Part shown: positions 1 through 39,378 of the stretch, in pieces | How positions within the stretch are numbered: the first letter of the stretch is position 1 | Layout: every line of letters begins with the position of its first letter | IMG/VR virus record: IMGVR_UViG_3300032224_000527 | Span: 1 to 39,378 of that record | DNA length: 39,378 nt | Direction: 5' to 3' (one strand) | From: a virus | Position numbers and translations under genes: made by a program | The notes under the pieces: generated by a model | The model's input: only the letters and a program-made list of their open reading frames with translations | What the model was told of the DNA's origin: nothing | The model's database searches: none

Positions 1-123
1 GTTTCCATTATGCCCTCTGGTGTTTTGTGTGCGTGAGCACAGTTGTAACACTCAATGAGTTGCGTTGTGTCGTCAATGTATGTAGTGAACACCTCAAACT
101 GTTGCATCTGTTCTTCGGCAAGA
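1..123. repeat. Left copy of 123-bp exact terminal repeat
   Basis: Bases 1-123 are identical to 39256-39378. Joining the ends at this repeat restores an uninterrupted reading frame (the amidotransferase-like gene), so the molecule is circular or circularly permuted and the contig is complete. The repeat lies inside a coding frame and has no special structure, which fits an assembler overlap better than a true packaged terminal redundancy. Confidence 0.95.
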
Positions 124-839
124 TACTCAAGTTCGTCATCATAATCAGGAATGATTAGACCGCTGTCTTTCTTATCCCATGATGAAGCGTATGAAGTTTT
201 GCCGTAGCCATAATCCCAGTCGTCATAACCCCAAAGACCGCCACTGGACTTGTATGAAGTGCCAGTGTAAGTCTTGTAAGTGACTTCCTCGTATGAATAG
301 TTAGACCACCACATATCTTTATCCCAGTGACCTGACTTCTCATTGAGAATGTACCAGTCTTGCTTGGCATCATCATTGACCGTGAGGAATACCAACTTAG
401 AACCAGTAGCCCATGCTTCTAGTTTCTTGTAGTAATCATCATCATCAAGTGATGTGATGCCACCAACACCGGGCATGATGTCTTGTGCAAACACTTTTGT
501 GTCCGAACGAGTATCGCCCTTTGGTATGGCAACTGGAAGTATGCCGTTGTGACCAACGACTGATTGGTTGTCTTTGCCCAAGAAAAATGGGTGACAGTTG
601 CTGACAGTTTCGCTACCGTGAGTTGCCCAACGGAAGTGAAAGATGGCAGGACCTTGATGTGTACGACGCAAGTCTGTGAACTTGTTTGCAACCTCATCAA
701 AGTTCATACTGTGACAAGTCACAATACTTTTGCCTGTTGATATTGCGAAACCGAAACCATCTGGATTGGCTTTGGATGCAACTTTGAACCTGTCCATGTC
801 TGGAGAGACATAATCAGGAATGAATGTTAGTAAACACAT
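1..839 (-). CDS. Class II glutamine amidotransferase-like Ntn protein, N-terminal part (gene crosses the circular joint)
   Basis: The ATG at 839 follows a good ribosome site (AAGAAAGGAA). The frame stays open to base 1 and continues at 39255 down to 39087, giving 335 residues. The protein begins Met-Cys, so Met removal exposes the Cys2 nucleophile of N-terminal-nucleophile amidotransferases. Other class II hallmarks follow: R70-W-A-T-H-G75, H97-N-G99 and an Asp near 113. The glutaminase-type domain fills about residues 1-190. A Tyr/Trp/Gly-rich linker (about 190-235) and a Cys-rich C-terminus (eight Cys between 264 and 299, probably metal-binding) follow. The family releases ammonia from glutamine or cleaves related amides, usually for a partner synthetase. 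The next gene upstream is an amidoligase, a likely partner. The substrate is unknown. Confidence 0.85.
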   Translation of the reverse strand, partial: MCLLTFIPDYVSPDMDRFKVASKANPDGFGFAISTGKSIVTCHSMNFDEVANKFTDLRRTHQGPAIFHFRWATHGSETVSNCHPFFLGKDNQSVVGHNGILPVAIPKGDTRSDTKVFAQDIMPGVGGITSLDDDDYYKKLEAWATGSKLVFLTVNDDAKQDWYILNEKSGHWDKDMWWSNYSYEEVTYKTYTGTSYKSSGGLWGYDDWDYGYGKTSYASSWDKKDSGLIIPDYDDELEYLAEEQMQQFEVFTTYIDDTTQLIECYNCAHAHKTPEGIME

Positions 840-887
840 ATTGTGTTCCTTTCTTGTTTGTTTGTTTGTTGATTTGTGATGTTAGGA

Positions 888-909
888 AACTGATACCGCA
901 GTATCAGTT
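888..909. repeat. Palindrome copy 1 (AACTGATAC-CGCA-GTATCAGTT)
   Basis: A perfect 9-bp inverted repeat around a 4-base centre. It contains the TGA stop of the first amidoligase gene (904-906). In the leftward RNA the loop would be C(UGCG)G, a UNCG-type tetraloop. No U-tract follows. First of six copies in the leftward block. Confidence 0.93.
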
Positions 910-1938
910 ATCGCAACGCTCTGCGATGCGATTAGACAGCAAGGCATAACGCTCTTGCGTGGCAACCCATGAACGAAATGAACGAAACGCCAAAGCGTTT
1001 CCAGACATAACTTTCTGAGTGTCGCACTCTGTCTCTGTGTAGTTGAAGACTGCATCACAGAACTGCAAAGCAGCCTGAACAGTCTTAGGGTTGAGTGATG
1101 GCTTGAAGAAACGCAACTCAACGGTGTGACGGTTCTGCAAGTTCACAGCACAGTAACGATTGTCATTGCGACTTTCGTTCTTGGCAAACTTCATCAACGA
1201 GTCGTTGGTGCGAGTGACATAGTTGCCATCAACATCATAGTCATTCCATGCGTTGAGGAAATAGTTCTTGTCAAAGTTAGCCCAACGCTCGCTGTCACGA
1301 CCTGCGAAACGCTTCACATCTGGTGCGTTATCAAGTATCAACTTGAAGAACTTGAACAGATGCTTCTCGTCTTTGAATGCAGAGCGTGACAAGTGAATGT
1401 GTAGACCACAAGTACCTGCGTCCCATGATTTGCAACCACGCTTGATGAGACCACTAACACCGTCCCATGCAAAGTGTTCCATTGCAAAGCCCAATGTCAT
1501 TGGGTGCGAAACAATTTCGAACCCATGTTCCAATGAGCCATCTTCTTTGAGATACACAATGTCGTTGCTTTCCGTGTTGATTGTCTCAAGCACAAACTGT
1601 GCACAATCTCTCGTTGGGAAACGACCTGTTTCCAACTCCAACTCAAAGCCCATGTACAAAGATGTACGGGATGAGTTTGCATCTGGAACAGTTGCGTAGT
1701 ACGACTTGTGACCGTCGTCGTTGAGGAAGATTGCACTCGGCTTATAGGAGTAACTGTGAATGAGATTATGTTCCTCTCGTTCTGCCTCGTACTCTGCTTC
1801 GCAATCACTCTCGTATTCGCTATTGCAATCACAACAACGCAAGTTGTCGTCGTATTCTGTTGCGTACATGTCATCTACATCCATGGTTTCTCCACAGTTG
1901 TAGCAGTCTCTGTACTCTATGTTGTCATTTAGTGGCAT
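904..1938 (-). CDS. COOH-NH2 amidoligase with N-terminal zinc ribbon
   Basis: 344 residues from the ATG at 1938, chosen because AAAGG lies 8 bases upstream; an in-frame start 15 codons earlier lacks such a site. Residues 12-38 hold a putative zinc ribbon (C12-x2-C15, then C35, C36, C38), followed by an acidic stretch. The catalytic region shows the signatures of GCS2-like amidoligases (Pfam Amidoligase_2 type): GFELELE at 97-103, EDGS at 132-135, EIVSHP at 141-146, GLHIHLS at 178-184 and VELRFF at 273-278. These supply the acidic Mg/ATP ligands and the His-x-His motif. The family forms amide bonds between a carboxylate and an amine using ATP. It lies just upstream of the class II amidotransferase and downstream of a second amidoligase. 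The acceptor is unknown. Confidence 0.87.
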   Translation of the reverse strand: MPLNDNIEYRDCYNCGETMDVDDMYATEYDDNLRCCDCNSEYESDCEAEYEAEREEHNLIHSYSYKPSAIFLNDDGHKSYYATVPDANSSRTSLYMGFELELETGRFPTRDCAQFVLETINTESNDIVYLKEDGSLEHGFEIVSHPMTLGFAMEHFAWDGVSGLIKRGCKSWDAGTCGLHIHLSRSAFKDEKHLFKFFKLILDNAPDVKRFAGRDSERWANFDKNYFLNAWNDYDVDGNYVTRTNDSLMKFAKNESRNDNRYCAVNLQNRHTVELRFFKPSLNPKTVQAALQFCDAVFNYTETECDTQKVMSGNALAFRSFRSWVATQERYALLSNRIAERCDN

Positions 1939-1995
1939 GATAGCCCTTTCTGTTTGTTGGTTTATATGTTTGTCCCATAACACAAAGTGTCATGA

Positions 1996-2037
1996 GCGAG
2001 AATGCACCAATGATGGGGGACACTGATGCACTCTCGC
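1996..2037. repeat. Imperfect inverted repeat in amidoligase leader
   Basis: GCGAGAATGCA (1996-2006) faces TGCACTCTCGC (2027-2037): 11-bp arms with one mismatch and a 20-base spacer. It sits between the 53-residue gene and the amidoligase start, next to palindrome copy 2, so the leftward mRNA leader here can fold into two hairpins before an A/C-rich unstructured stretch and the ribosome site. Confidence 0.7.
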
Positions 2038-2042
2038 CCACG

Positions 2043-2068
2043 CAAACTGATACCGAAGTATCAGTTTG
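2043..2068. repeat. Palindrome copy 2 (11-bp arms, CGAA centre)
   Basis: CAAACTGATAC, CGAA, GTATCAGTTTG: perfect 11-bp arms. In the leftward transcript the loop is C(UUCG)G, the most stable natural tetraloop. It starts 13 bases after the stop of the 53-residue gene. No U-tract follows. Confidence 0.94.
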
Positions 2069-2080
2069 TATGAGCGTTGC

Positions 2081-2242
2081 TCACGCAACTTGTTCTGCGT
2101 TCACATCACCTGTCTTTATGAAAGAAAACTTTAGCATCTCACGCAAACGCTCGTTCTCTTGTTGCAATAACTCAATGTCGATGCGAGCATTCTCCAATGT
2201 TGCAGCGATAATGCGTAGTTGTCTCTCTGTTTCTTTATTCAT
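2081..2242 (-). CDS. Small coiled-coil protein, 53 aa
   Basis: Starts with ATG at 2242 behind a strong AAAGGAGA site. The ATG overlaps the TGA of the preceding gene as ATGA, so translation is probably coupled. The protein is charged and helical, with heptad-like spacing (L9, I12, L16, I21, I23, L25 and further Leu), ending around residue 53 with no Cys or membrane segment. No family recognised. It is the last gene of a three-gene coupled set headed by the shorter amidoligase and may be a small accessory or dimerisation subunit; that role is inference from position only. Confidence 0.75.
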   Translation of the reverse strand: MNKETERQLRIIAATLENARIDIELLQQENERLREMLKFSFIKTGDVNAEQVA

Positions 2243-2451
2243 TTCTTTTCTCCTTTGTTTTCTATGAAATACCAGAAGCCAGTTTGTAGCAAGCCACTGA
2301 TTTGGTCAATGATTTCACCATCAGTGAAGTCTTGACCATCTTGTTTGATGATGCGGTCAATTTCTTTGAGCACATCTATTATGTTGCACTGATGGCAACC
2401 ATACTCCAACATTGGGGTGTCATCATCTGACATTTGACCATTCCATTTCAT
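2239..2451 (-). CDS. Small acidic protein, 70 aa
   Basis: ATG at 2451 behind AGGAGA; it overlaps the TGA of the shorter amidoligase as ATGA, and its own TGA overlaps the next ATG. The sequence is acidic with one C-x2-C pair (CHQC, about residues 20-23) followed by a helical region with DVLKEIDRII and a C-terminal aromatic patch (FWYF). No domain recognised. The double overlap places it firmly in one translational unit with the amidoligase. Confidence 0.75.
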   Translation of the reverse strand: MKWNGQMSDDDTPMLEYGCHQCNIIDVLKEIDRIIKQDGQDFTDGEIIDQISGLLQTGFWYFIENKGEKK

Positions 2452-3098
2452 TGCTGTTCTCCTGTTTCTTTCTGTGTTGTTGTTAGATAATCCATGTACC
2501 AAAGAATTGCGTACTTGGAAAGTGTTGGAATGAATGCACGAATTTCTACCGTGTTGCCACGAACATTTACAGTCTTGTACCTACTTGTGTAGTCATTTAC
2601 ATCTGTAACAAACTCTGTTGCGCACCAGGCAGTTGGCTTTACAAACATTTGTCCAACACCAATAGACGATAGTGAAATATGGTCTGATGTAACAGTGTTT
2701 GCAAATTGCACAACATGGTCATCATTGTCAAATGATGAACGGTTCATGTGAATATGCAAACCTTGTTCGCCAATTTCATGGATATTGAACCCTGAGTGTC
2801 TAACCAAATCCATGAAAGACCAATCAAAGTGTTGCCTGTAATAACCAATAGTTGCTGGGTGACTGACAATCTCAAATCCATTACACAAAGAACTTTCTTG
2901 CTTGCAAACAACATCATCATTATGTTGTGTAATGCGTGACGCAAGTCGTCCTTTGCGAATACTATTTGTCCTGTCCTCAACTTCTAACTCAAATCCAAAT
3001 AATGTTTGATTTGGATTTACTTTGAGACTATGAGATTTACTCTCATCATCTCTCCATGAAACAAATGGCTTTGCATGGTATGAAAGTATGTTTGTCAT
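2448..3098 (-). CDS. Second COOH-NH2 amidoligase, short form
   Basis: 216 residues. The same signatures as the longer paralogue appear in the same order: FGFELEVE at 34-41, an acidic/Ser element at 67-70 (QESS in place of EDGS), FEIVSHP at 75-81, GLHIHMN at 113-119 and VEIRAF at 184-189. It lacks the N-terminal zinc ribbon and about 60 C-terminal residues of the paralogue. The Asp-to-Glu change in the second motif may be tolerated or may mark a changed activity. The start at 3098 has only a weak purine-rich ribosome site. Translationally coupled to the two small genes that follow. With the longer paralogue and the amidotransferase it suggests two ligation steps or a heteromeric ligase. Confidence 0.83.
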   Translation of the reverse strand: MTNILSYHAKPFVSWRDDESKSHSLKVNPNQTLFGFELEVEDRTNSIRKGRLASRITQHNDDVVCKQESSLCNGFEIVSHPATIGYYRQHFDWSFMDLVRHSGFNIHEIGEQGLHIHMNRSSFDNDDHVVQFANTVTSDHISLSSIGVGQMFVKPTAWCATEFVTDVNDYTSRYKTVNVRGNTVEIRAFIPTLSKYAILWYMDYLTTTQKETGEQQ

Positions 3099-3139: not shown

Positions 3140-3161
3140 AACTGATACCGCAGTATCAGTT
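3140..3161. repeat. Palindrome copy 3 (identical core to copy 1)
   Basis: AACTGATAC, CGCA, GTATCAGTT, perfect 9-bp arms. It contains the TGA stop (3156-3158) of the 72-residue membrane protein gene and lies about 40 bases before the start of the shorter amidoligase gene. Confidence 0.93.
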
Positions 3162-3374
3162 CCAGTCCTTGTTTGTTGGGTGATTATTGCGTGAACGAAG
3201 AAACTGTTGTGCCTCTGGACTAGACCAGTTCTTCATTTCCATTGCTTGACGAGCAATCCATTCATCACTCATAGTCCAATCTTTCTCTGCTTTCTCGTAG
3301 CCGTACTCAAATGCAAAGCCCCACACAAGTAGGACAACAATGAGTGCAGTTGTAAATAAGCCGAACCAATTCAT
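3156..3374 (-). CDS. Small single-span membrane protein, 72 aa
   Basis: Start chosen at the ATG at 3374, which overlaps the previous TAA (TAATG) and has GGAG 6 bases upstream; another ATG four codons earlier is possible. Residues 1-23 form one hydrophobic helix (MNWFGLFTTALIVVLLVWGF), followed by a charged, Trp-containing C-terminal part of about 45 residues. The pattern predicts an inner-membrane protein with a short N-terminus. No family recognised. A membrane protein early in this block could be a superinfection or host-takeover factor, but nothing in the sequence shows it. Confidence 0.72.
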   Translation of the reverse strand: MNWFGLFTTALIVVLLVWGFAFEYGYEKAEKDWTMSDEWIARQAMEMKNWSSPEAQQFLRSRNNHPTNKDWN

Positions 3375-3580
3375 TAGATGCTCCATTCTGTTGAGAACTT
3401 AGGTGTAACACCAAGTTCGTCTTTGCTAATTCGTTTTTCTACGGTCACAATATCTGAAAATTGCTGAAGTAACGCAAGCACTTCTGCAAGTTCCTCTTTG
3501 CCTTTCATGATTTGTGCACGCAATTCGTAAGCACGATTATTGAGTGCTTCGAATGACTGGTTATTTTTTCTATTACGCAT
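3374..3580 (-). CDS. Small helical protein, 68 aa
   Basis: The ATG at 3580 follows AAGGAGATAGC, a strong ribosome site, preceded by an A/C-rich leader with repeated CAAACAA units. The protein has a basic N-terminus (MRNRKNN), a central helix rich in Ala, Leu, Glu and Lys (about residues 10-42) likely to form a coiled coil, and a short C-terminus. No family recognised. It overlaps the next gene start by one base. Confidence 0.72.
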   Translation of the reverse strand: MRNRKNNQSFEALNNRAYELRAQIMKGKEELAEVLALLQQFSDIVTVEKRISKDELGVTPKFSTEWSI

Positions 3581-3688: not shown

Positions 3689-3710
3689 AACTGATATCGC
3701 AGTATCAGTT
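3689..3710. repeat. Palindrome copy 4 (one change at the inner pair)
   Basis: AACTGATAT, CGCA, GTATCAGTT. Eight of nine pairs match and the innermost pair is T/G on the + strand. It overlaps the TAA stop of the 143-residue gene (3709-3711). Confidence 0.9.
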
Positions 3711-4208: not shown

Positions 4209-4234
4209 CAAACTGATACCGCAATATCAGTTTG
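4209..4234. repeat. Palindrome copy 5 (11-bp arms, one inner change)
   Basis: CAAACTGATAC, CGCA, ATATCAGTTTG. The outer ten pairs match; the innermost is C/A on the + strand and U/G in the leftward RNA. It lies 26 bases after the stop of the 65-residue gene. The arms extend outward by the same C-A as in copy 2. Confidence 0.9.
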
Positions 4235-8056: not shown

Positions 8057-8394
8057 TGGCACACTACGCATTTTTGGATGAGAACAACATTGTGACCGAG
8101 GTAATTGTTGGGCGTAATGAAACAGAAGTTGTTAATGGTATTTCTGATTGGGAAGCACATTATGCAAACTTTCGTGGACAGGTTTGCAAACGCACTTCGT
8201 ATAACAACAATATCCGCAAACAATATGCTGGTATCGGTTTTTCGTATGACCCTGTGCGTGACGAGTTTGTAGCACCTAAGCCATATCCTTCATGGTCTTT
8301 GGATGCTAATAATGATTGGCAAGCACCAGTACAGAAACCATCTGAGGACGGTTTGTGGTCTTGGCATGAGGACACACAAGAGTGGAAACGATAA
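8056..8394 (+). CDS. Conserved tail-fibre-associated protein, 112 aa
   Basis: Begins MAHYAFLDENNIVTEVIVG and contains a central RTSYNNNIRKQYAGIGFSYD and PKPYPSWSLD, ending with a Trp-rich DGLWSWHEDTQEWKR. I recognise this as the small protein that follows tail-fibre genes in many cyanophages, pelagiphages and other aquatic phages. Its function is not established; a fibre chaperone or capping role is the usual guess. The start overlaps the adhesin stop (TGATG), supporting a joint role. Confidence 0.85.
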   Translation: MAHYAFLDENNIVTEVIVGRNETEVVNGISDWEAHYANFRGQVCKRTSYNNNIRKQYAGIGFSYDPVRDEFVAPKPYPSWSLDANNDWQAPVQKPSEDGLWSWHEDTQEWKR

Positions 8395-8912
8395 CGCTAG
8401 GTGCATTTGCTCGTTCAGGAAATCATTACTTCCAACACATAGTTGAAACTGCGCTTATAGATGTGCGTTGTGATTGGTTATCGCACAGAATAAGCGATTG
8501 GGATAATCAACCAAACCGTGTAACCATTATTCGCAATCCAGTTGACTCTGTTGCTTCATGGATTTCAACTACTGGAGATGAACGCCTGAATCGTGCTGAA
8601 CAAGTTTTGGAATGGTATATTTCGTATTATGAAAAGGTTAATTCACTAGACAAGATTATTATTTTTCCATTTGAGCAATTAATCAATGATTCTCTTGGTT
8701 CAATAAACCATGTTTGCAATGTATACGGATTAAATAAATCTTTCTTTTCTAACAATGACACACTAAAGGCTGCTTTTGACAATTCAGTTAATTACATTTG
8801 GGCTAATCAAACAGGTATAGATTTATCTCAAATAAAGTATGAAATAAAGAATAATTATCTATTCAAAAATGCAACAAAGATTTACAAAAAACTATGCGTT
8901 CCCGTTGGATAA
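8382..8912 (+). CDS. Sulfotransferase-like P-loop protein, 176 aa
   Basis: GTG start at 8382, overlapping the upstream gene by 13 bases. The 5'-phosphosulfate-binding loop appears as GAFARSGNHYFQ (residues 7-18; R11, S12, G13) and the 3'-phosphate-binding motif as TIIRNPVDSVASW (48-60; R51, S59), separated by only about 35 residues, so this is a compact form. Sulfotransferases move sulfate from PAPS to hydroxyl or amino groups of sugars, lipids or proteins. The gene is more AT-rich than its neighbours and sits between adhesin and surface-protein genes, suggesting modification of a host surface sugar or of the fibre. It could also be an inactive relic fold. Confidence 0.72.
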   Translation: METITLGAFARSGNHYFQHIVETALIDVRCDWLSHRISDWDNQPNRVTIIRNPVDSVASWISTTGDERLNRAEQVLEWYISYYEKVNSLDKIIIFPFEQLINDSLGSINHVCNVYGLNKSFFSNNDTLKAAFDNSVNYIWANQTGIDLSQIKYEIKNNYLFKNATKIYKKLCVPVG

Positions 8913-21935: not shown

Positions 21936-23120
21936 ATGAGCATGCAACCCCCTATTGGGCAACCAGATTACAACGCAATGCTTCCTATTCTGGCTACATA
22001 CGCCAACCGCAAAGGCGGTGGCAACTCTGGGGATTTGAGTAACATTCTGAACCCGATGATGGGTTTGTTCTCTAATTCGTACACAGCACCGCAAGTGATG
22101 TCAGATGAGGAAATCCAACGAATCTATGCTCCACAGACTTTGGCTATCCGCAATAGCGATGACCCCATCTCTACGTCAATCCTTGACTATATTGAGCGTG
22201 GCTACCCTGCAATCCAAATCAAAAAGATTCTTAGTGATGGTGTAAATAAGACTGGAACAATCCAGTTGAATGACCCAAGTGAAATCAACATGTACAACAA
22301 GTTGGTTGACGACCTATTTGCTGAAAGCAAATCGGTTGACGAACAACGCTATAAGATTGCAAATGAAGACACCATCTACGAGAAGTATGGTCTGCGTAAT
22401 CCAAACGAAGAGTTTGATGCAAAGAAGTTATTCCCAGAGATATTCACTGGTCTTGAAAATCAAAAACAAACAATCAAGAAAGGTATTGAACCAAAACTTC
22501 AAGCCATTCGTGACAAATTTGCAAAACCAGAAAACAACATGCCACAAGGTCTTCTTAAGTCTGCGACTATTGAAGAGTTCCTAAAAGGAAATGTTGATTT
22601 CAAATTGCCGGGCAATAAGAAACCAACACAACAAGATAAAAACTGGTCAATGGTTCTTGCTAAAAGACTTGATGATTATGTTAAGGGAAATCCAGTACAA
22701 CTTTCAACTACTGGCAAATCGCAGTGGATGGACGATGCTACATTTGCATCAACAGCAAAACAACTTGAAGATGCAACTGGTATTAAAGTCCAACTTCCAA
22801 ATCAGGTTGAAGATATGTCTACCAACAAACAGCGTGGTGTTGGCAAGACAACATCACGTGATGAAGCATTCAAAAAAGCACAAATGAATTATCAGTTGGA
22901 ACTCGCCGGCGCACCTGTGACCGCACACAAAGTTGGAAATACTGGTGGTGCTGTAACTCAAATTCCTGTAGATAATCTTCGTGACCCTGTTCAACAACAG
23001 CAGAAGTTAATTGACCTAGTACAAAAGAAAGTTCAGGAGGGTTTGAAAGCCAGAGGAGAAACGCCATTTAATCAAGACATGCTTAATAGGATTATTCTCA
23101 ACAAAGCAATGGGTGGGTAA
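21936..23120 (+). CDS. Internal virion protein candidate, 394 aa
   Basis: ATG at 21936, with only a weak ribosome site. The sequence is mixed alpha, rich in Lys, Asn, Asp and Gln, with no Cys. It contains EEIQRIYAPQTLAIRNSDDPIS and a C-terminal QQQQKLIDLVQKKVQEGLKARG helix. No enzymatic family recognised. Its stop overlaps the ATG of the giant protein, suggesting both are made together as part of the DNA-ejection apparatus. Confidence 0.7.
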   Translation: MSMQPPIGQPDYNAMLPILATYANRKGGGNSGDLSNILNPMMGLFSNSYTAPQVMSDEEIQRIYAPQTLAIRNSDDPISTSILDYIERGYPAIQIKKILSDGVNKTGTIQLNDPSEINMYNKLVDDLFAESKSVDEQRYKIANEDTIYEKYGLRNPNEEFDAKKLFPEIFTGLENQKQTIKKGIEPKLQAIRDKFAKPENNMPQGLLKSATIEEFLKGNVDFKLPGNKKPTQQDKNWSMVLAKRLDDYVKGNPVQLSTTGKSQWMDDATFASTAKQLEDATGIKVQLPNQVEDMSTNKQRGVGKTTSRDEAFKKAQMNYQLELAGAPVTAHKVGNTGGAVTQIPVDNLRDPVQQQQKLIDLVQKKVQEGLKARGETPFNQDMLNRIILNKAMGG

Positions 23121-26100
23121 TGGCTTCACAGCAAGAACTGCTTTCAGCACTTCAAGGATTAGCACAACAAACTTATGCAACCAAAGCACCGGCACCAGTA
23201 GCCGTTGCTCCAACAACACGCACCGCCTCGCCACCCAAGATGGGTGCGAGTGGTGCTCCAAACCTATTTGACACAATTGTAAAACAGGCGAACACGGTTC
23301 CATTGAGTCCAGTAAGTCAAAAGACTCGTGCTGCTCAGCAGGGTCTAAATACTTATGCACGAAATCAGGGCATGAAGTATCCAAACGTTCTTGATGAAAT
23401 TCAGTCCGCAGCAGCAGGTCAAACAAAACCATCAGGAGCACTTGGTGCTCTTGCACATGTTCTTGATAACCCAATTGCAAAGGTTGTTCTCAAACCGCTT
23501 GAGATTCTTGATACTGGTCGTCGTGCGGTTATCTCAACTGTCCGTGAAGTGGTTGACGTTCTTGACAGTGATGCGAACACAAAGGCAAGTTTGACGGACT
23601 GGTTCAGCCAAACCAAAGACCCAACTTATGGATTTGGTACAGCATTCCCAGTTAAGGGCAACTGGGGTCGTGCTTTAGGTTTGTTTGGTGACTTGGCTCT
23701 TGACCCAATTAACTGGTTGACACTTGGTACATCAATTCCTGAGACACTTGCACTTCGTGCAGGTGAAGGTGCGTTAATGAGAGGTGCTGCACTTGCAGCC
23801 GAAGAAATTGCAGCAATGGGCCCAGAAGCAGTTGCAAAAATGGCGGCAGAAGAAGTTGCACGTAGTGCAGCAAGCAAAGAGGGTGTAAAACTAGCAAAAC
23901 TTCTTGGACAACGACAGAGCGGTCGTGGCTTTGCAACTAACCTTGCCAAACTTGCAGATGGTATGGGTGCATCAGCAGAACTTGTGCAAGACATCGCATT
24001 GCGTGGACGCACTGCTCTTGGTAGAACTGAAGAAGGAATCCAGTTAGCAAAAAGAATTGGATTGCCAGATAGTGGACTTTACGTAATTGGAACAAAGGTT
24101 AAAGTTCCGTTCACAGGACCGGTTGCTGAAATGCTTGAGCGTGGCATTGTGCGTTCACGAATTGGAATAACTGGAAGCCGTGCTGGTGAATGGTTTGCGG
24201 AGAACTTCACCACAAAGGGGACATCTGCTGCACGAAACATGCAACCACTTCGACGTGGTTTGCGTACAGGAAAACTTGTTGTTGATGGCAAGTTGCAGAG
24301 AATGGATGCAGAACTTGCTCGCTATGCAGTACGCATGGAGACAATGGATAATGCGGCTCGTGCATTAGAAAACATTATGATGGATGCATACGCAAAGCGT
24401 GTTGCTCCATTCCTTGAACAAGCAGACGTTAAGGCTGCTGGTCCAGAACTTTACAAGTTCTTGGACACTCCAAAGTTCAAAGAAGATGGAATAACTCTTA
24501 ACTGGGCACGAGAAATGACGCCAACAGAGGAAACTGCGTACAACAAAGTAAAGCAGTTGTTCAAAGACTTCCATACAGAAGTTGAGGCAAAGTATCAATT
24601 GGTTGACCAAGGATTTACCCTCAACGCACACGAAAACTATCTGCCACACATGATGACGGATGAGGCTCGTGATTGGTTGAATAGTCTTACAACTGCTCGT
24701 GCTGAAGAGATTCGTCAGTATTTGAAATTAAATATGACTGACCCTGCATCATCGTTTAAGTCTCGTGGATTGATTGAAGGTGCAAACTTCTTTGGCAAAG
24801 AACTAACAAAAGATGATGTGCTTGGAGGAGTTGAAAGACTCAACCAAATTGCAAACCAAGCAACTGATGGTTTTTCAGGCAAGTTCTTTGAGACAGACAT
24901 TGACAAGATTATGACCAAGTATGGTCAGCATTATGCTCAGCAGTTTGGGACTGCAGAGTTCATGCGTCTTGCTGTTGAGGGTGGAGTGCTTGCTGAAGCA
25001 AAACAAATGGGAACTGTCTCCAAAGAGTGGTTGCGAGAGACTGCTTCTTATGCAAAGAAAGTTGAGCAGGCCATGAAGGCTGCTCACTCGGAGATGCGTA
25101 ATAGTGGTAGTGCTGCGGTCACAGCGTTGCGTGATTACATGACCGTATTGACCAAAGAGGGTGGCTTTGCTGGTGATGAGGTGAAGGCACTTGTTCAAGG
25201 TCTCAGGGAAGTTGGAACACCTGAAGAGATGTTCAAGAAACTTGAGGCTGCACAGAAACTTGTTGCTCGTGCTGCTGAAAAACAGAAGCAAGCATGGTTT
25301 AAGTTTGTGAACGCAAGAGCAGAAAATACAGCAGTTGTTGACATGCTTCAGTCTGTTCTTGACGACCTTGACATTGCTTGGAATGATTTGTCAAAGACTC
25401 TTGATGAGATGGTCATGAACCATCCAAAGATTATTTCTGAATTGGGTGTAACCCTTGACCAACCTGCTGGTCAAGCAATGGTCATGGTTGATGGAAAACT
25501 CAAAACAATTGATAACGCTATCGCAAGTCTTGAACTTAAAGGTCAACGTGCTGCTGAGGCTCTGAAAGAAGCCGAAGACCAGTTTGCAAGAATAACAAGA
25601 CTCGATAACACGCTCAATGGAATTGCTAGTGGACATCTCAGTGTAAATGGTTCTGACGATATTTGGGAAAATATCGTTCAGGCTTTAGCCGAGGAGGATA
25701 TTCACATTCCTCAGTACAAACCAATGACACCAAAAAACATTGGACCTATTTGGACAAAGGAAAGAATTGTCGGAACAGATATGGAAATTGTCAAGGCGAC
25801 AATTGACCCGACCAATAGCATCTCAAACGCTGCTTTGTCACGCCTTACAATTGATGATGTTAGAAACCGTGTAGCGAATGCGGTCACATCAGGAGCATCT
25901 GGCGCAAGTCTGAAAGAACTCCGTGAGGCTGGTGTTTGGTTGATTGTTCGTGATGCAATGAACGACCCAGAGTTTGCTAGGGCTCTTGCCAACGACATCA
26001 AGGGTGCTGGTGCTATGGAAGGTGCAACTCGTTCACGCTATGCAAACTTAGTTGAGTTGCTTCGTCAGGCTGATGCTACAGAAACATTTATGTTCCGTGA

Positions 26101-29100
26101 TTCAGAAAGCAAGTTGGCTAAATCTGTTGCTTCTATAAACGACAACATCTTTAATGCAGAACAAATTATTGCAGATGCTGAAGACACAATCTTAATGAAC
26201 TCTGATGCAGATGGATATTTTGGTTTAGTTCCAATTGAAGCAGTTAATGAACAAATTGATTTGCAAAGAAAGAAAATTGCTGACTGGACTAGAAGGTTGG
26301 AAAAAATAACCAAGGGTCAGAATGAATATGCTGTTGGTGCAATTGAGAATGCAAACAAGATAAACGGTTTCCGTGATGTAGTTGCAGACCTTGGTGCTGG
26401 TATTTCTGAGTACTACTTACACCGTGAGTCGTACAACCAATTGCGCTCATTGCAAGATGCAATGGCGCATGTTGGTCGCATTGTTGACCAGAAGACATAC
26501 AACAAGATTCTTGCTAATGTTGCTAGACCAGAACTTAAAGCAACTATTGAGCATCAAAATGGTTTGATTGAATTACAGGACTTCTTCACAAACCTGCGCA
26601 AGCGTGTTGAGTCAATCCCTGATAGAAAGCCAACCAAACAACAGGTTGAAGCAATCAGGCAAACTCTTCTTGAAGAAGAAGTTTCTTATCCACAACTTAA
26701 AGAATATAAAGTCGGTGAACAAAAAGGTTTTAAGCCAACTGGAAAAATGATTACAGAAAAGGCTGGTGAATGGGGTCCTCGTAAACAAGAATTACTACAA
26801 CGCCAAACAACACGTTCACAGGACATTACTCGTTCAATTACTCTACGTGAAGAATTAGCAAAGATTTTCCGTACACAAAAGGTTGGTAAAGGTTTCCAGA
26901 AAAAGGAAATAACCGATGCTTTGCGTATTCAGGAATTGATACGCAAGCATTTGCCAGAACTTGAAGCAGTTATGTTGCAGGATAAGTTGGGCGATGTTAA
27001 CCGTGTGTTCTATCGCCACCCACAAGCAATGTATCTTGAAGAAGAAGTTCTTAAACTTCTTCGTGAGCGTGGACAAAATCCAGTTTGGGGTAGACCGCTA
27101 ACTCGTCGTGCTCGTGCATTAAAGATGCGTGGTGGAAATGAAATAGATGATTTGACCAGTGGTTTTAGAACAGCATCTGCAAGTTCTGCTGGTCAGTATG
27201 ACAAACTTCGTGGAAACATTGCTGACGCTATTGAACAGTTGAAGAAAGTCGAAGTTCCATATGTTGCGAAGAAGGTAAATCCGGTTCGCAAGAAGATAGA
27301 TGAACTTGAAAAACTTTATAAGCAGATTGTTGCAGAAGTTGAACAAGACCAAAAGATGGCGCTTGATGCAGGTAAGCGTCTCACCGGCAAAGGTGCAATG
27401 AAGGACATCAACAAAGTAATCAATAAATCAATCAGAAATGGTAAAGAGTTTGGTTATTCTGGAATTATTGACTCTGCATTCAATGGCAGTGATAAGCATG
27501 TGACACAACTGTTTGCTGAATTGCTTGGTGGAGATATGTACGAGTACTCAGGTACTCGTGCTGTAAGACAGTATCGAACAATTACTGCTGGTGATTCATA
27601 CTTTGGAACATTGTATGAAAGAAATGCTAGTCGTATTAAGGGTCTGCGTGTATTGACAGAAGAAACCAGTTTGCCGCTTGACAAACTGCTTCAGGGCGTT
27701 GAAGGCCGTTCTGTAAACGGAAGATATATTCCTGGTGCTTGGCTAATGCGCAAGGAGTTGCGTGGCGCAAACTCACTTGCTGACTTCTTAGAAGAATATG
27801 CCAATGAACTGAGTAGGCGTATTGGACTCAAGAAAGACATTAACACGGCTGAGAAAGCATCTCAGCGTGAGTTAATGCGTCTTGAAGGAACAGTTCCAGA
27901 GATTGGACCACCAAAACCAACAAACAAGCCATTCATTTCAACTCTGTCAGAAGATGTTCAAATGGAAATACCAGCGCAGGGCAAGTCAATGCGTACTGTA
28001 ATGCGTGAACAAGTAGAGAATGAAGTAATCAAGACTCAACTTGATGAGTTGGCATCAACTCCAGAATATGGTCGTGCTGCACGTCGTGAAAGCGAGCATC
28101 GATTCTTGAATGTGCTCGCAAAATTTGACGAGGCTACAGCAGAACAGATTGGATTTACTCCAGCAGAGTTTAATGCTTTGTGGAATGACCCACTCAAGCC
28201 TGTTGAAATCAACAGACTTGAATCACAACTCAAGACATTGGAAAAGACGCACACTCGTCTTTCGGCAACAAGAAAGAACTTGTTGGTAAAGCGTGCGGAC
28301 ACAACAGCGATTGACGGTCAGTTGCAAAGGGTTGAAGACCTCTTGCTTGATGTTGAAAAACAAGTTCTTGAGCATCGTTCATCACGTTCTGCTCTTGAAA
28401 AGTTAACTGTAATCCACGACAACTTTGCCGACTTTGCAAGACAGCAAGAGTCTGGTGTTTCTTTTGCATTCAAGTTTAAGACTGGACCTAATGGTCCTGA
28501 GCCTTTGTCGCCAGAAGAAGCATTGCAACAACTTGTTGACCAGTATGGTGTCAAGGCTCTTGAAGAAGATGTAAAAGCACGCACCAACTATTTGCAAAGA
28601 ATACGACTGAAAAGCGATGAATATAAGTTCATGCGTGACTACAAAGAAACTGAAGCAAGACTTAGTGTCAAGATGCAACAGCAATGGGCTAATGAACGCT
28701 CAAACATTGTCAACTTCCAAGACAGAATCCGAATGAAGGTAAGCCAACTCAACGGTCAAAACGTTGAGCAGGCTAAGGCAATATCAGACCTTGAGGCCCA
28801 AATACTTGATGAACTCAATGGAGTAAATATTAAACCTCGTGCCAAGGGTGGTCAGAAACTTGCTGACGAAACATTGCGACTTGCTGAAGATGTTCGTGCA
28901 CGTCCTGCGGATGTCATACCGGGTGAGTTGCTAACTGATGCCCAGATTGAACAGCAACTTGGTGGTCGTGCGCTTGGCAAGGGTGGCAAAGACCAATACT
29001 TTGTTCCTGATACTGGCGCTATTGAGGCTGGTACAACTCCTGCACAACTCGAAATTGCAGGGGAAAAAGCAAAGATTGATGCTATTGCAGAAGAGGTTGC

Positions 29101-31042
29101 AAATCTCAATCTCAAAAAGATTGTGATTGAAAATCGTCAGCAGGAAGTACTTGACTCTCTGAAAAAAATGACAACAGAACAGCGTTCAATCATTGCTCAG
29201 AAGTTGCAAAAATCCCGTGAGTTGGAACAAGCAATGAAGGCTGGAGAAAAACTCCAGACTCAAACTGGACCAAAGACTCTTGCAGGAAAAGCCGCTAAGT
29301 CACGACAGGTTTTGACTGACGCACAAAAGGTAATGAGCGAAGCAGAGGCTGCTTATGACAGCGCAGTCAACTATGCATCATGGGCTCCAGAGGCTCTTGA
29401 AGATGCTCGCAAGGTTGTGAACGACCTCAAGAACATGTCTACAAAGGGAACTCAAGTAAAGAAAACCATTAAGGCTGGAAGCGATGGTTGGATTGCAGAT
29501 GTACAGAATTACATTGAAGAAGCGTCTGCGCTTCTCAATGCAATTGACGGTGAAGATATTCCAAACCACATTCGTGCTGCGGTCACAGACTTCACAACCA
29601 AGCATGCTGAGTACTTAAAGCAAGTACAGCGACTTGGTGATGCGCAGACTGAGAAGTTGTTTGCAGATGGCTTGAAGGGAATGGAATATGCAGGAAGTAT
29701 TGGTAGCAAGATGCCGATTGCTTTGCGTGGTCGTGTTCCAGAATCTGCCTACAACATTGTCCCAATGTTTGATGAGGGCTTTGTTCAGTTGAGCAAGTAC
29801 TTCCCAAACATTGGTGTAAAGAAAGAACTTGAGTCAATTGTTAAGTCCGTTCACAGATTCAACGAACCACAAATTGTTCGTGAGTTTGGAAGATTTACCA
29901 GTAAGTACACAAAGTTCTTTAAGGCTTACGCAACATTGTCGCCGGGCTTCCACGCACGAAACGCAATGTCAAACGCATTCATGATATTTGCAGCAGGTGG
30001 TGAATTGAAGTATATGAATGAAGGTCTTGAGATGAGCAGGTCTTGGCTCAATGCATCGAAGCGTGGACTCAATGTTGAAGAGTGGCTCAAGGAACTTCCA
30101 GTAGAGATGCAAGCAAAAGCAAAGACTGCAATGGATGCATTCATGGCATCTGGTGGTGGTATGTCGTCAGACTTCTTTGACCTTGGTCGTTTGCCTAAGG
30201 GAACAAAGAAATCAAAAGAACTTGGTAAGTGGATTGAAAACCACTCACGCTTTATGCTTGCTTGGGACGGTGTGTCAAAGGGAATGGACATTGATGCAGC
30301 AGCAACTCGTGTTCGTAAGTACTTGATTGACTACGCAGACGTTTCAACTGGAGACCAACTGATGCGTCAGATTGTTCCTTTCTGGATGTGGACAAGTCGC
30401 AACCTTCCGTTGCAACTTGGAAACATGTGGCTCAACCCAAAGGCTTATGCAATCTACAACACAATCAAACGAAACATTCGTGCTGACAAAGAAGGTGATG
30501 TTGTTCCGCAGTGGATGCGTGAAATTGGTGCGTTCAAATTACCATTTGGAAATAATCTTTATGCAACTCCAGACTTTGGATTTAACCGTGTTGGACAACA
30601 GATTCAAGAATTGAGCGACCCACAGCGTCTGCTCTCAAACGTCAACCCATTACTTCGTGTTCCAATCGAGTTGATGGGTGGAAGACAACTTTATAACAAT
30701 CGTCAGTTTTCTAATAAGCCTGTTCAAGTTGGTAATGGTGCTGGAGCAATCTTGCAACCATTCCTTGCAGCAGCAGGTTATGGAGAAACACGAGATGGAA
30801 AACAGTTTGTGAACGACAAAGCATATTATGCAGTTCGCAACTTGATTCCATTCCTTGGAACAGCAGAAAGATTGACTCCATCAATCGATACATATCAGCA
30901 ACGTGGTTATGTAAACCCACTACTTGGATTCCTTGGTGTTCCGGGTCGTCAATTGAAGGAACAAGAAATTCAGTCTGAACTCGCACGACGAAAAGGCGAG
31001 ATAGCAAAAATAACATCACGAGAGAAAGCATTTGGTGAATAA
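23120..31042 (+). CDS. Giant virion / ejection protein, 2640 aa
   Basis: One open frame of 7.9 kb. An N-terminal region (about 95-215) has the style of large polyvalent or ejected phage proteins: VLDNPIAKVVLKPLEILDTGRR-type helix, then KDPTYGFGTAFPVKGNWGRA and GDLALDPINWLTLG. A second landmark, ENYLPHMMTDEARDWL, lies near residue 505. About 650-2200 is mostly long charged helices and coiled coil with many Gln, Lys and Glu. A C-terminal part (about 2270-2560) has LSPGFHARNAMSNAF, PFWMWTSRNLPLQLGN and LLRVPIELMGG, resembling a membrane-associating domain. No lysozyme motif is evident. It is probably ejected with the DNA to form a channel. Confidence in function is moderate, in the gene itself very high. 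Confidence 0.85.
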   Translation: MASQQELLSALQGLAQQTYATKAPAPVAVAPTTRTASPPKMGASGAPNLFDTIVKQANTVPLSPVSQKTRAAQQGLNTYARNQGMKYPNVLDEIQSAAAGQTKPSGALGALAHVLDNPIAKVVLKPLEILDTGRRAVISTVREVVDVLDSDANTKASLTDWFSQTKDPTYGFGTAFPVKGNWGRALGLFGDLALDPINWLTLGTSIPETLALRAGEGALMRGAALAAEEIAAMGPEAVAKMAAEEVARSAASKEGVKLAKLLGQRQSGRGFATNLAKLADGMGASAELVQDIALRGRTALGRTEEGIQLAKRIGLPDSGLYVIGTKVKVPFTGPVAEMLERGIVRSRIGITGSRAGEWFAENFTTKGTSAARNMQPLRRGLRTGKLVVDGKLQRMDAELARYAVRMETMDNAARALENIMMDAYAKRVAPFLEQADVKAAGPELYKFLDTPKFKEDGITLNWAREMTPTEETAYNKVKQLFKDFHTEVEAKYQLVDQGFTLNAHENYLPHMMTDEARDWLNSLTTARAEEIRQYLKLNMTDPASSFKSRGLIEGANFFGKELTKDDVLGGVERLNQIANQATDGFSGKFFETDIDKIMTKYGQHYAQQFGTAEFMRLAVEGGVLAEAKQMGTVSKEWLRETASYAKKVEQAMKAAHSEMRNSGSAAVTALRDYMTVLTKEGGFAGDEVKALVQGLREVGTPEEMFKKLEAAQKLVARAAEKQKQAWFKFVNARAENTAVVDMLQSVLDDLDIAWNDLSKTLDEMVMNHPKIISELGVTLDQPAGQAMVMVDGKLKTIDNAIASLELKGQRAAEALKEAEDQFARITRLDNTLNGIASGHLSVNGSDDIWENIVQALAEEDIHIPQYKPMTPKNIGPIWTKERIVGTDMEIVKATIDPTNSISNAALSRLTIDDVRNRVANAVTSGASGASLKELREAGVWLIVRDAMNDPEFARALANDIKGAGAMEGATRSRYANLVELLRQADATETFMFRDSESKLAKSVASINDNIFNAEQIIADAEDTILMNSDADGYFGLVPIEAVNEQIDLQRKKIADWTRRLEKITKGQNEYAVGAIENANKINGFRDVVADLGAGISEYYLHRESYNQLRSLQDAMAHVGRIVDQKTYNKILANVARPELKATIEHQNGLIELQDFFTNLRKRVESIPDRKPTKQQVEAIRQTLLEEEVSYPQLKEYKVGEQKGFKPTGKMITEKAGEWGPRKQELLQRQTTRSQDITRSITLREELAKIFRTQKVGKGFQKKEITDALRIQELIRKHLPELEAVMLQDKLGDVNRVFYRHPQAMYLEEEVLKLLRERGQNPVWGRPLTRRARALKMRGGNEIDDLTSGFRTASASSAGQYDKLRGNIADAIEQLKKVEVPYVAKKVNPVRKKIDELEKLYKQIVAEVEQDQKMALDAGKRLTGKGAMKDINKVINKSIRNGKEFGYSGIIDSAFNGSDKHVTQLFAELLGGDMYEYSGTRAVRQYRTITAGDSYFGTLYERNASRIKGLRVLTEETSLPLDKLLQGVEGRSVNGRYIPGAWLMRKELRGANSLADFLEEYANELSRRIGLKKDINTAEKASQRELMRLEGTVPEIGPPKPTNKPFISTLSEDVQMEIPAQGKSMRTVMREQVENEVIKTQLDELASTPEYGRAARRESEHRFLNVLAKFDEATAEQIGFTPAEFNALWNDPLKPVEINRLESQLKTLEKTHTRLSATRKNLLVKRADTTAIDGQLQRVEDLLLDVEKQVLEHRSSRSALEKLTVIHDNFADFARQQESGVSFAFKFKTGPNGPEPLSPEEALQQLVDQYGVKALEEDVKARTNYLQRIRLKSDEYKFMRDYKETEARLSVKMQQQWANERSNIVNFQDRIRMKVSQLNGQNVEQAKAISDLEAQILDELNGVNIKPRAKGGQKLADETLRLAEDVRARPADVIPGELLTDAQIEQQLGGRALGKGGKDQYFVPDTGAIEAGTTPAQLEIAGEKAKIDAIAEEVANLNLKKIVIENRQQEVLDSLKKMTTEQRSIIAQKLQKSRELEQAMKAGEKLQTQTGPKTLAGKAAKSRQVLTDAQKVMSEAEAAYDSAVNYASWAPEALEDARKVVNDLKNMSTKGTQVKKTIKAGSDGWIADVQNYIEEASALLNAIDGEDIPNHIRAAVTDFTTKHAEYLKQVQRLGDAQTEKLFADGLKGMEYAGSIGSKMPIALRGRVPESAYNIVPMFDEGFVQLSKYFPNIGVKKELESIVKSVHRFNEPQIVREFGRFTSKYTKFFKAYATLSPGFHARNAMSNAFMIFAAGGELKYMNEGLEMSRSWLNASKRGLNVEEWLKELPVEMQAKAKTAMDAFMASGGGMSSDFFDLGRLPKGTKKSKELGKWIENHSRFMLAWDGVSKGMDIDAAATRVRKYLIDYADVSTGDQLMRQIVPFWMWTSRNLPLQLGNMWLNPKAYAIYNTIKRNIRADKEGDVVPQWMREIGAFKLPFGNNLYATPDFGFNRVGQQIQELSDPQRLLSNVNPLLRVPIELMGGRQLYNNRQFSNKPVQVGNGAGAILQPFLAAAGYGETRDGKQFVNDKAYYAVRNLIPFLGTAERLTPSIDTYQQRGYVNPLLGFLGVPGRQLKEQEIQSELARRKGEIAKITSREKAFGE

Positions 31043-36822: not shown

Positions 36823-36844
36823 AACTGATATTGCAGTATCAGTT
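36823..36844. repeat. Palindrome copy 6 (one change at the inner pair)
   Basis: AACTGATAT, TGCA, GTATCAGTT. Eight of nine pairs match; inner pair T/G on the + strand. It lies 4 bases after the TAG stop of the lysozyme-like gene and upstream of leader module B. The only copy outside 888-4234. Confidence 0.9.
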
Positions 36845-37492: not shown

Positions 37493-38007
37493 GGTAGTTG
37501 CCTTTCATTCTGAATAGATGCTGATTTCAGCGCACGAACGACATCGTACATATCCTGCATGGCACTTGCTAATGAGCCCATTGCGTTACCTTCGTCGTAT
37601 GTAACGGCTTTGTCACCCGTAAATCGGATAGACGAACCCATTTTTCCGTTGTGGCACATTGTCATGAGACGACAACGCTTACGCTCAGGGTGCTTTGATG
37701 GTTCAATCTCATTGTTCTCATCATTTTCTTTGTCAATAGGTGCAGCCCAACCCGTAGTAACAACAGCAAAGCCGTTGTAACCAGAGTCAAACAACAAGAC
37801 AGCGTTGAATGTATCGTCAAGCATGGCGTAAATGTCGCTGTCTTCTGCAACTTGTCTGACTGCAGGGACTTCACCTCTGACATAATCAACAGCAAACAAT
37901 CTTGATGTTGGTAGTTCAAATGTGTTGCCAATCTTTTCTGCTATTGCTTGGTCAATCTCTTTGAGAGTTTGCTCAAACTTTTCTGTGTATGTGATTGATG
38001 TTTTCAT
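37489..38007 (-). CDS. Conserved hypothetical protein, 172 aa
   Basis: Mixed alpha/beta: an N-terminal helix (YTEKFEQTLKEIDQAIAEKIG), a beta core with DDTFNAVLLFDSGYNGFAVVTTGWAAPI, a Cys/His-containing RCRLMTMCHNGKMGSSIRF strand and a C-terminal helix. The GFAVVTTGWAAPI stretch resembles hypothetical proteins of actinobacteria and their phages that I recall, but no function is known. It overlaps the WhiB-like gene and the next gene by 4 bases each, so it is cotranscribed with WhiB. Confidence 0.72.
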   Translation of the reverse strand: MKTSITYTEKFEQTLKEIDQAIAEKIGNTFELPTSRLFAVDYVRGEVPAVRQVAEDSDIYAMLDDTFNAVLLFDSGYNGFAVVTTGWAAPIDKENDENNEIEPSKHPERKRCRLMTMCHNGKMGSSIRFTGDKAVTYDEGNAMGSLASAMQDMYDVVRALKSASIQNERQLP

Positions 38008-38255
38008 TTCTTTTTATTCTTTCTGTAGTCGGCTTTGCCGTTGGTTAGTGTTACTCCACCCCAAATGCCCCATGAGTTGGTTGCTTTGCCGTAAGCAAGG
38101 CACTCAACTTTCATGGAACACTCAGAGCAAATTGCTTTTGCTTGCTTCCATTCTTTCATTTTCTGTTTAGTTGGTGGCCATTCTGGAAACCACCAAATAG
38201 TTGGTTGAGATTTGCACTTTGCCTTAGCAAAGTCTATCTCGATAGGACTAAACAT
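38004..38255 (-). CDS. whiB: WhiB-family iron-sulfur transcription factor, 83 aa
   Basis: All four cluster-binding Cys are present: C14, then C43-x2-C46-x5-C52, followed by the family turn G63-I-W-G-G67 and a basic tail (ADYRKNKKK) for DNA contact. WhiB-like proteins occur only in actinobacteria and their phages, bind sigma factor region 4 and DNA, and respond to redox or nitric oxide. A phage copy can redirect host transcription or block the host WhiB. It overlaps both neighbours. This gene gives the main evidence for the host group. Confidence 0.94.
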   Translation of the reverse strand: MFSPIEIDFAKAKCKSQPTIWWFPEWPPTKQKMKEWKQAKAICSECSMKVECLAYGKATNSWGIWGGVTLTNGKADYRKNKKK

Positions 38256-39086: not shown

Positions 39087-39378
39087 CTAGTTGTAACTTG
39101 GGTGTGTTGTTGTTTGAGTTGGGACAACTACGGCATTGGCTTCGTAGATATCCTCATTGAATGCTTCCAAATCATAGATTTGGTAGATGGCAGACCAACA
39201 AGCACATGGATACTGAGCACCACAGAAGTGACATGCACCGCACTCATCACAATGAGTTTCCATTATGCCCTCTGGTGTTTTGTGTGCGTGAGCACAGTTG
39301 TAACACTCAATGAGTTGCGTTGTGTCGTCAATGTATGTAGTGAACACCTCAAACTGTTGCATCTGTTCTTCGGCAAGA
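39087..39378 (-). CDS. Class II glutamine amidotransferase-like protein, C-terminal part
   Basis: Continuation of the gene at 1-839 across the joint, in the same frame. It includes residues 245-335: VFTTYIDDTTQLIECYNCAH, then Cys at 282, 285, 288, 291, 297 and 299 in CDECGACHFCG and CAC patterns, probably two metal sites. A Thr/Pro tail ends the protein. Its ECYNC knuckle resembles the DCYNC knuckle of the long amidoligase; a shared binding partner is possible. Confidence 0.85.
   Translation of the reverse strand, partial: LAEEQMQQFEVFTTYIDDTTQLIECYNCAHAHKTPEGIMETHCDECGACHFCGAQYPCACWSAIYQIYDLEAFNEDIYEANAVVVPTQTTTHPSYN
39256..39378. repeat. Right copy of 123-bp exact terminal repeat
   Basis: Identical to bases 1-123. 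It shows that the contig closes on itself. Confidence 0.95.

Follow-up and report, generated by a model that had tools for sequence, protein, structure and literature searches.

In our study, a viral DNA stretch of 39,378 nucleotides (IMG/VR record IMGVR_UViG_3300032224_000527, positions 1 to 39,378; the whole stretch is called the window) was found to encode a near-obligate module of two proteins, an amidoligase (AL1) and a class II glutamine amidotransferase (GATase). A second amidoligase (AL2) looks like an add-on to this module and not a core part of it, because it is present in some relatives only and always together with AL1-GATase. The folds, the catalytic residues, the near-obligate linkage, and the optional presence of AL2 were established by computation. 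Close to the start of the window, the minus strand carries, in reading order, AL2, two small open reading frames (ORFs), AL1, and GATase, and the features of the locus were as follows.

1-839, minus strand: residues 1-279 of the GATase, starting with the ATG at 839; the gene runs on past the window end.
39087-39378, minus strand: remainder of the GATase with its C-terminal Cys-rich tail; stop at 39087; joined through the terminal overlap.
904-1983, minus strand: AL1, an Amidoligase_2 protein (glutamine synthetase (GS)-like) with an N-terminal Cys-rich (zinc-ribbon-like) domain; assigned by PF12224, PHROG families, alignment, and tree; likely ATG at 1938.
2081-2242, minus strand: 53-aa ORF; ATGA overlap with the 87-aa ORF; conserved in close relatives.
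2239-2502, minus strand: 87-aa ORF; overlaps the 3' end of AL2; likely ATG near 2454.
2448-3098, minus strand: AL2, the second GS-fold amidoligase, without a zinc ribbon, optional; assigned by phrog_16683, model, fold match, and tree.
3156-3386, minus strand: 76-aa ORF; flanks, on the upstream side, the variable slot in which AL2 lies.

The linkage of AL1 and GATase was examined in locus sets that are biased towards relatives of the window proteins and contain some redundancy. In 78 of the 79 new viral GATase loci and in L016 (79/80 in total), the GATase was immediately preceded by an amidoligase gene on the same strand, and the sole GATase locus without it begins at a contig end. After grouping at 80% identity, the upstream amidoligase was found in 38 of 39 groups, and the two genes overlapped or were separated by 10 bp or less in 25 of 38 relatives (one per group). 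The gap was 64 bp in the window, with a hairpin in between. A broader set of 72 loci showed an amidoligase as the gene preceding the GATase in 63/67, and a search that started from the amidoligase found a GATase within 6 kb in 74/78 loci, two of the four exceptions being contig ends. The pair was also present in the phages Marvin, MEP402, and ctgrD200, and in chromosome contigs of Nocardia, Labedaea, and Mycolicibacterium. One contig of Nocardia sp. CDC159 (L176:5998-10058) contained two amidoligase-GATase pairs in tandem.

The GATase is complete. Positions 1-123 of the window were found to be an exact repeat of positions 39256-39378, and because the ends overlap by exactly 123 bp, the ORF reads from 839 to 1 and then on to 39087, giving a protein of 335 aa with the Cys-rich tail at its end; a gene truncated at the window edge was thus ruled out. 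For the same reason, the map is most likely complete, either as a 39,255-bp circle or as a terminally redundant genome. The GATase contained the motifs Cys2, RWATHG, HNG, and SDT, and the residues Cys2, His68, Arg70, Thr73, Gly75, Asn98, Gly99, and Asp113 were invariant in 80/80 relatives. We take these eight positions, judged by motif order, to be the catalytic and glutamine-binding positions of GlmS. The Cys residues 264, 267, 285, and 288 of the tail were invariant in 27 relatives. Pfam GATase_4 gave 20 bits with the window protein, which is under the cut-off of 23, but it was matched by 27/27 relatives in the GATase alignment. An AlphaFold2 model was built for a close relative from L012 that is 94% identical to the full window protein, and its confident core extended over about residues 1-186. 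The best structural matches of this model were the GlmS glutaminase domain (Z 13.8 over 171 residues), EgtC (Z 12.9), and PurF (Z 12.3); Foldseek returned human GFAT-1 (6e-7) and GlmS (1.7e-6). The sequence search gave GlmS at 5e-5, and EgtC was absent among the matches listed. The original prediction, made from the sequence alone, had proposed an N-terminal nucleophile (Ntn) amidotransferase-like protein, and the modelled structure confirms a predicted Ntn class II fold with an intact glutamine site.

The same prediction had named two distinct GCS2-like amidoligases, and both were recovered by different routes, AL1 through its protein family and AL2 through its fold. AL1 matched PF12224 (Amidoligase_2) at 9e-8 with 32.7 bits, above the cut-off of 22. 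Its N-terminal Cys-rich domain was found in 57 of 63 AL1-type relatives, and when the amidoligase alignment was compared by sequence with solved structures, the only matches were weak ones between this Cys-rich N-terminus and LIM-type zinc domains. AL2 had no match to Pfam at an E-value of 1, and therefore did not reach the PF12224 cut-off; because of this, it is filed only as GS-fold amidoligase-like. Both phrog_16683 (1e-15 with AL2) and phrog_22302 were common to AL2 and AL1. The AL2 model (pLDDT 85, pTM 0.86) contained the catalytic fold of glutamine synthetase, with a Z score of 12.2 over 174 residues to 4bax, and the 50 structural matches listed were glutamine synthetases and their close kin. 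Because the ExE, E, HxH, and ExR motifs were invariant across AL1 and AL2, and were kept within the AL2 clade too, the modelled AL2 is probably an active ligase.

No matches were found when AL2 was searched as a single sequence, and its relatives were obtained by alignment-based searches. In the tree, whose long branches call for caution, the AL2 proteins formed their own clade (support 100/98), far from the AL1 of the window. A recent tandem duplication of AL1 as the source of AL2 was ruled out by this separate clade, although the branches are long, and on the aligned sequences the AL2 lineage is old, fast-changing, and separate from AL1. AL2 was present in 4 of the 11 close relatives in which the region was visible and absent from the other 7, where the slot between the 76-aa and 53-aa ORFs was empty or filled by unrelated small ORFs; the slot is hypervariable among close relatives. 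A search with AL2-clade proteins gave seven AL2 contigs, all of which (7/7) carried AL1-GATase downstream, and AL2 was seen only together with this pair. The GATase and the two amidoligases had been predicted to form one coupled unit. The AL1-GATase part of this was near-invariant, but one fixed unit of three genes was ruled out, since the pair persists where AL2 is lacking.

It is quite unlikely that AL2 is a decaying or non-enzymatic paralogue without a biochemical role. The long branch (1.6 changes per site), the shortened N-terminus, the patchy occurrence among close relatives, and the lack of a Pfam match would be consistent with decay, but the catalytic motifs of the GS type are invariant in the AL2 clade and shared with AL1, six further contigs retain an intact reading frame, and the model is confident. 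A more far-reaching proposal, which we regard as speculative and rather unlikely, is that AL2 stands at the base of an amidoligase lineage of its own, evolving fast and active only alongside AL1-GATase, and that its presence switches the module from making one modification to making two; by gaining and losing AL2 in the variable slot, actinophages would then change the host-surface or anti-defence chemistry.

Glutamine-dependent amide synthetases are usually built from a glutaminase and an ATP-dependent carboxylate-amine ligase, as in AsnB and in MurT-GatD, where the GATase is of class I. Ammonia transfer from the GATase to AL1 is favoured because the near-obligate pairing of glutaminase and ligase follows this design. 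Our tentative reading, to which we give a little less than an even chance, is that AL1 and GATase make up a glutamine-dependent amide synthetase, either as its two subunits or as two closely coupled steps, whose target is a carboxylate of the host; AL2 would contribute an optional second ligation. The Ntn GATase would split glutamine by means of its N-terminal Cys (residue 2 before removal of the Met) and hand over the ammonia; the GS-like AL1 would activate the carboxylate with ATP as an acyl phosphate and then amidate it; and AL2, where present, would work in the same pathway as another GS-fold ligase, forming one more amide bond. The glutaminase activity, the ammonia transfer, and the amidoligase activity are those that we infer for these proteins. 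The change, made early in infection, would most likely fall on a host molecule with free carboxylates, foremost the stem peptide of peptidoglycan (D-Glu/meso-diaminopimelate); peptidoglycan is a guess, by analogy with literature proposals for the same genes, with the biology of the host, and with the carboxylates available there. Some points weigh against the amide-synthetase reading. No gene for a substrate was linked to the pair, the neighbours being WhiB, a DnaB-like helicase, a primase, a nuclease, and unknowns, and the only cell-wall enzyme seen was an SLT lysozyme-like gene located several genes away. A gamma-glutamyl hydrolase such as EgtC, in a near tie with GlmS by structure, would keep the same residues at the glutamine site, and the target of the enzymes may instead be a protein or a small metabolite.

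The EgtA-EgtC pair of ergothioneine synthesis is composed of a GCS2-family ligase and an Ntn hydrolase. Since EgtC nearly ties GlmS structurally, and EgtA-EgtC pairs the same enzyme classes, a ligase with a gamma-glutamyl hydrolase stays a real rival, possible though not probable, in which the GCS2-like AL1 would couple an amine to an acid such as glutamate and the Ntn hydrolase would later take this tag off again. The gamma-glutamyl-binding residues would be identical in both enzymes; phage C75C1 carries an amidoligase together with a protein whose N-terminus is GATase-like and which is annotated as gamma-glutamyl cyclotransferase, and the authors of the PSA-HP1 study group the GATase with degradation (PMC5498523). 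However, the RWATHG and HNG motifs were closer by sequence to GlmS than to EgtC, no Egt-type methyltransferase or sulfoxide synthase was recognised among the neighbours examined, and the fact that the two genes are nearly always adjacent and often overlap fits a complex, without proving one. It also seems unlikely that the pair modifies a host protein, small metabolite, or signal (such as a defence effector or a nucleotide-derived alarm molecule) and not the cell wall, with the Cys-rich domains of AL1 and GATase recognising the target. Conserved Cys-rich parts in both proteins, unusual for small-molecule enzymes, point in this direction, as does the early-gene position by the replication genes with no other cell-wall gene closely linked. 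Nevertheless, no target gene or defence marker was linked, and the Cys-rich parts could merely hold the two subunits together and were absent from the GATases of MEP402 and ctgrD200. In general scans of the window proteins, with no further search made, no gene supporting DNA hypermodification was recognised.

The small genes of the locus had been predicted to be coupled, and this was true of AL2 and the 87-aa and 53-aa ORFs, which overlap one another by a few bases, but not of AL1 and GATase, which are spaced apart here. No match to the 87-aa ORF was seen among the close relatives compared. The 76-aa ORF contained a hydrophobic N-terminal stretch, read from the sequence, which is a possible membrane segment. 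Six near-identical 20-bp palindromes (ACTGATAY-NNNN-RTATCAGT), against 0.11 expected by chance, were found at or near the 3' ends of genes in the minus-strand early region, including both sides of AL1.

889-908, no strand: 20-bp palindrome between AL1 and GATase; includes the AL1 stop codon.
2046-2065, no strand: 20-bp palindrome between the 53-aa ORF and AL1.
3141-3160, no strand: 20-bp palindrome between the 76-aa ORF and AL2.
3690-3709, 4212-4231, and 36824-36843, no strand: further 20-bp palindromes of the same near-identical set.

Several of these palindromes overlap the stop codon of the preceding gene. As RNA, they form hairpins with UNCG-like loops and locus-specific outer stem pairs, and the folding clearly surpassed that of shuffled sequences in 4/6 cases. 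The palindromes were kept in some close relatives and absent in others, and may be terminators, processing sites, or operators.

Protein family scans showed that the genome encodes a terminase, a portal of the P22/SU10 type, a major head protein, and an SLT lysozyme-like protein. Its replication and regulation genes were a DnaB-like helicase, an archaeo-eukaryotic-type primase, a PD-(D/E)XK nuclease, and a WhiB regulator, the last located as follows.

38004-38255, minus strand: WhiB-like regulator; the amidoligase-GATase pair lies a few genes upstream of it.

Many of the 72 neighbourhoods compared have, immediately downstream of the cassette, a member of a family of short proteins that resemble WhiB. 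Regulators of the WhiB type are characteristic of Actinomycetota and of the phages that infect them, and because the genome encodes one and similar-looking proteins lie beside the cassette in many relatives, the host is probably an actinobacterium. The G+C content was about 43-47%, and a search for tRNA genes found none. Among the structural genes, a weak sulfotransferase-like protein (Sulfotransfer_1, score under the cut-off) was encoded at 8382-8912 on the plus strand. A single ORF of 2640 aa at 23120-31042, plus strand, occupied a fifth of the genome; it had no PHROG match, and its product is possibly a large internal virion protein.

The pair is widespread: a single scan of viral contigs yielded 397 relatives of the GATase. 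A demonstration of its substrate was not found in the literature searched. As phages that can be cultivated on Mycobacterium smegmatis, Marvin among them, carry the near-obligate module, the superinfection/peptidoglycan proposal is directly testable.

The GATase shares the Ntn class II fold and the glutamine-site motifs with EgtC and with the glutaminase domain of GlmS; however, it is a stand-alone protein with a Cys-rich tail, whereas GlmS has a sugar-isomerase domain, and the identity was only 17%. In the Marvin-type phages (gp105/gp106; 19 Mycobacterium phage records, e.g. JF704100), an amidoligase with an N-terminal Cys-rich domain is followed directly by a GATase with a Cys-rich tail, as in the window, with identities of 33% to AL1 and 40-42% to GATase, but no AL2 was seen beside the pair and the genome is far larger (65 kb). 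The OM43 phages MEP401/402 likewise contain an adjacent, overlapping amidoligase (PF12224) and GATase (PF13522), although their host is proteobacterial, their amidoligase is longer, and their GATase is without the Cys-rich tail (PMC10580990). Both genes were listed there as auxiliary metabolic genes with a proposed cell-wall/superinfection role, and superinfection and secondary-metabolite proposals for phiEco32 and Marvin are cited in the same paper. In PSA-HP1, a seven-gene peptidoglycan-modification cassette was described that includes a GATase, two amidoligases (one of them a gamma-glutamyl amidoligase), an ATP-grasp enzyme, and a cyclotransferase, and that is common to phiEco32, LUZ24, PaP3, tf, and RIO-1 (PMC5498523); an amidoligase, a GATase, and a COOH-NH2 ligase were reported in LUZ24-like phages (PMC3890496). 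The side-by-side amidoligase and GATase by which such a cassette is recognised are present in the window. The cassettes of RIO-1, PSA-HP1, LUZ24, and phiEco32 share with the window an amidoligase, a GATase, and a further amidoligase among early genes, but additionally have ATP-grasp and gamma-glutamyl cyclotransferase genes; for this type of cassette, those papers refer to Iyer et al. and to Hardies et al. (2013). In the window genome, no ATP-grasp gene of PF14243 was found (other ATP-grasp families were not searched one by one), and no gamma-glutamyl cyclotransferase of the GGACT family (PF06094; other cyclotransferase families were not searched). The novelty that had been suggested for two amidoligases with a GATase was therefore not upheld, since published work (PMC5498523, PMC10580990, PMC3890496) already describes both the pair and cassettes that contain a second amidoligase; the AL2 lineage and the quantified linkage of AL1 and GATase are modest additions to these known systems.

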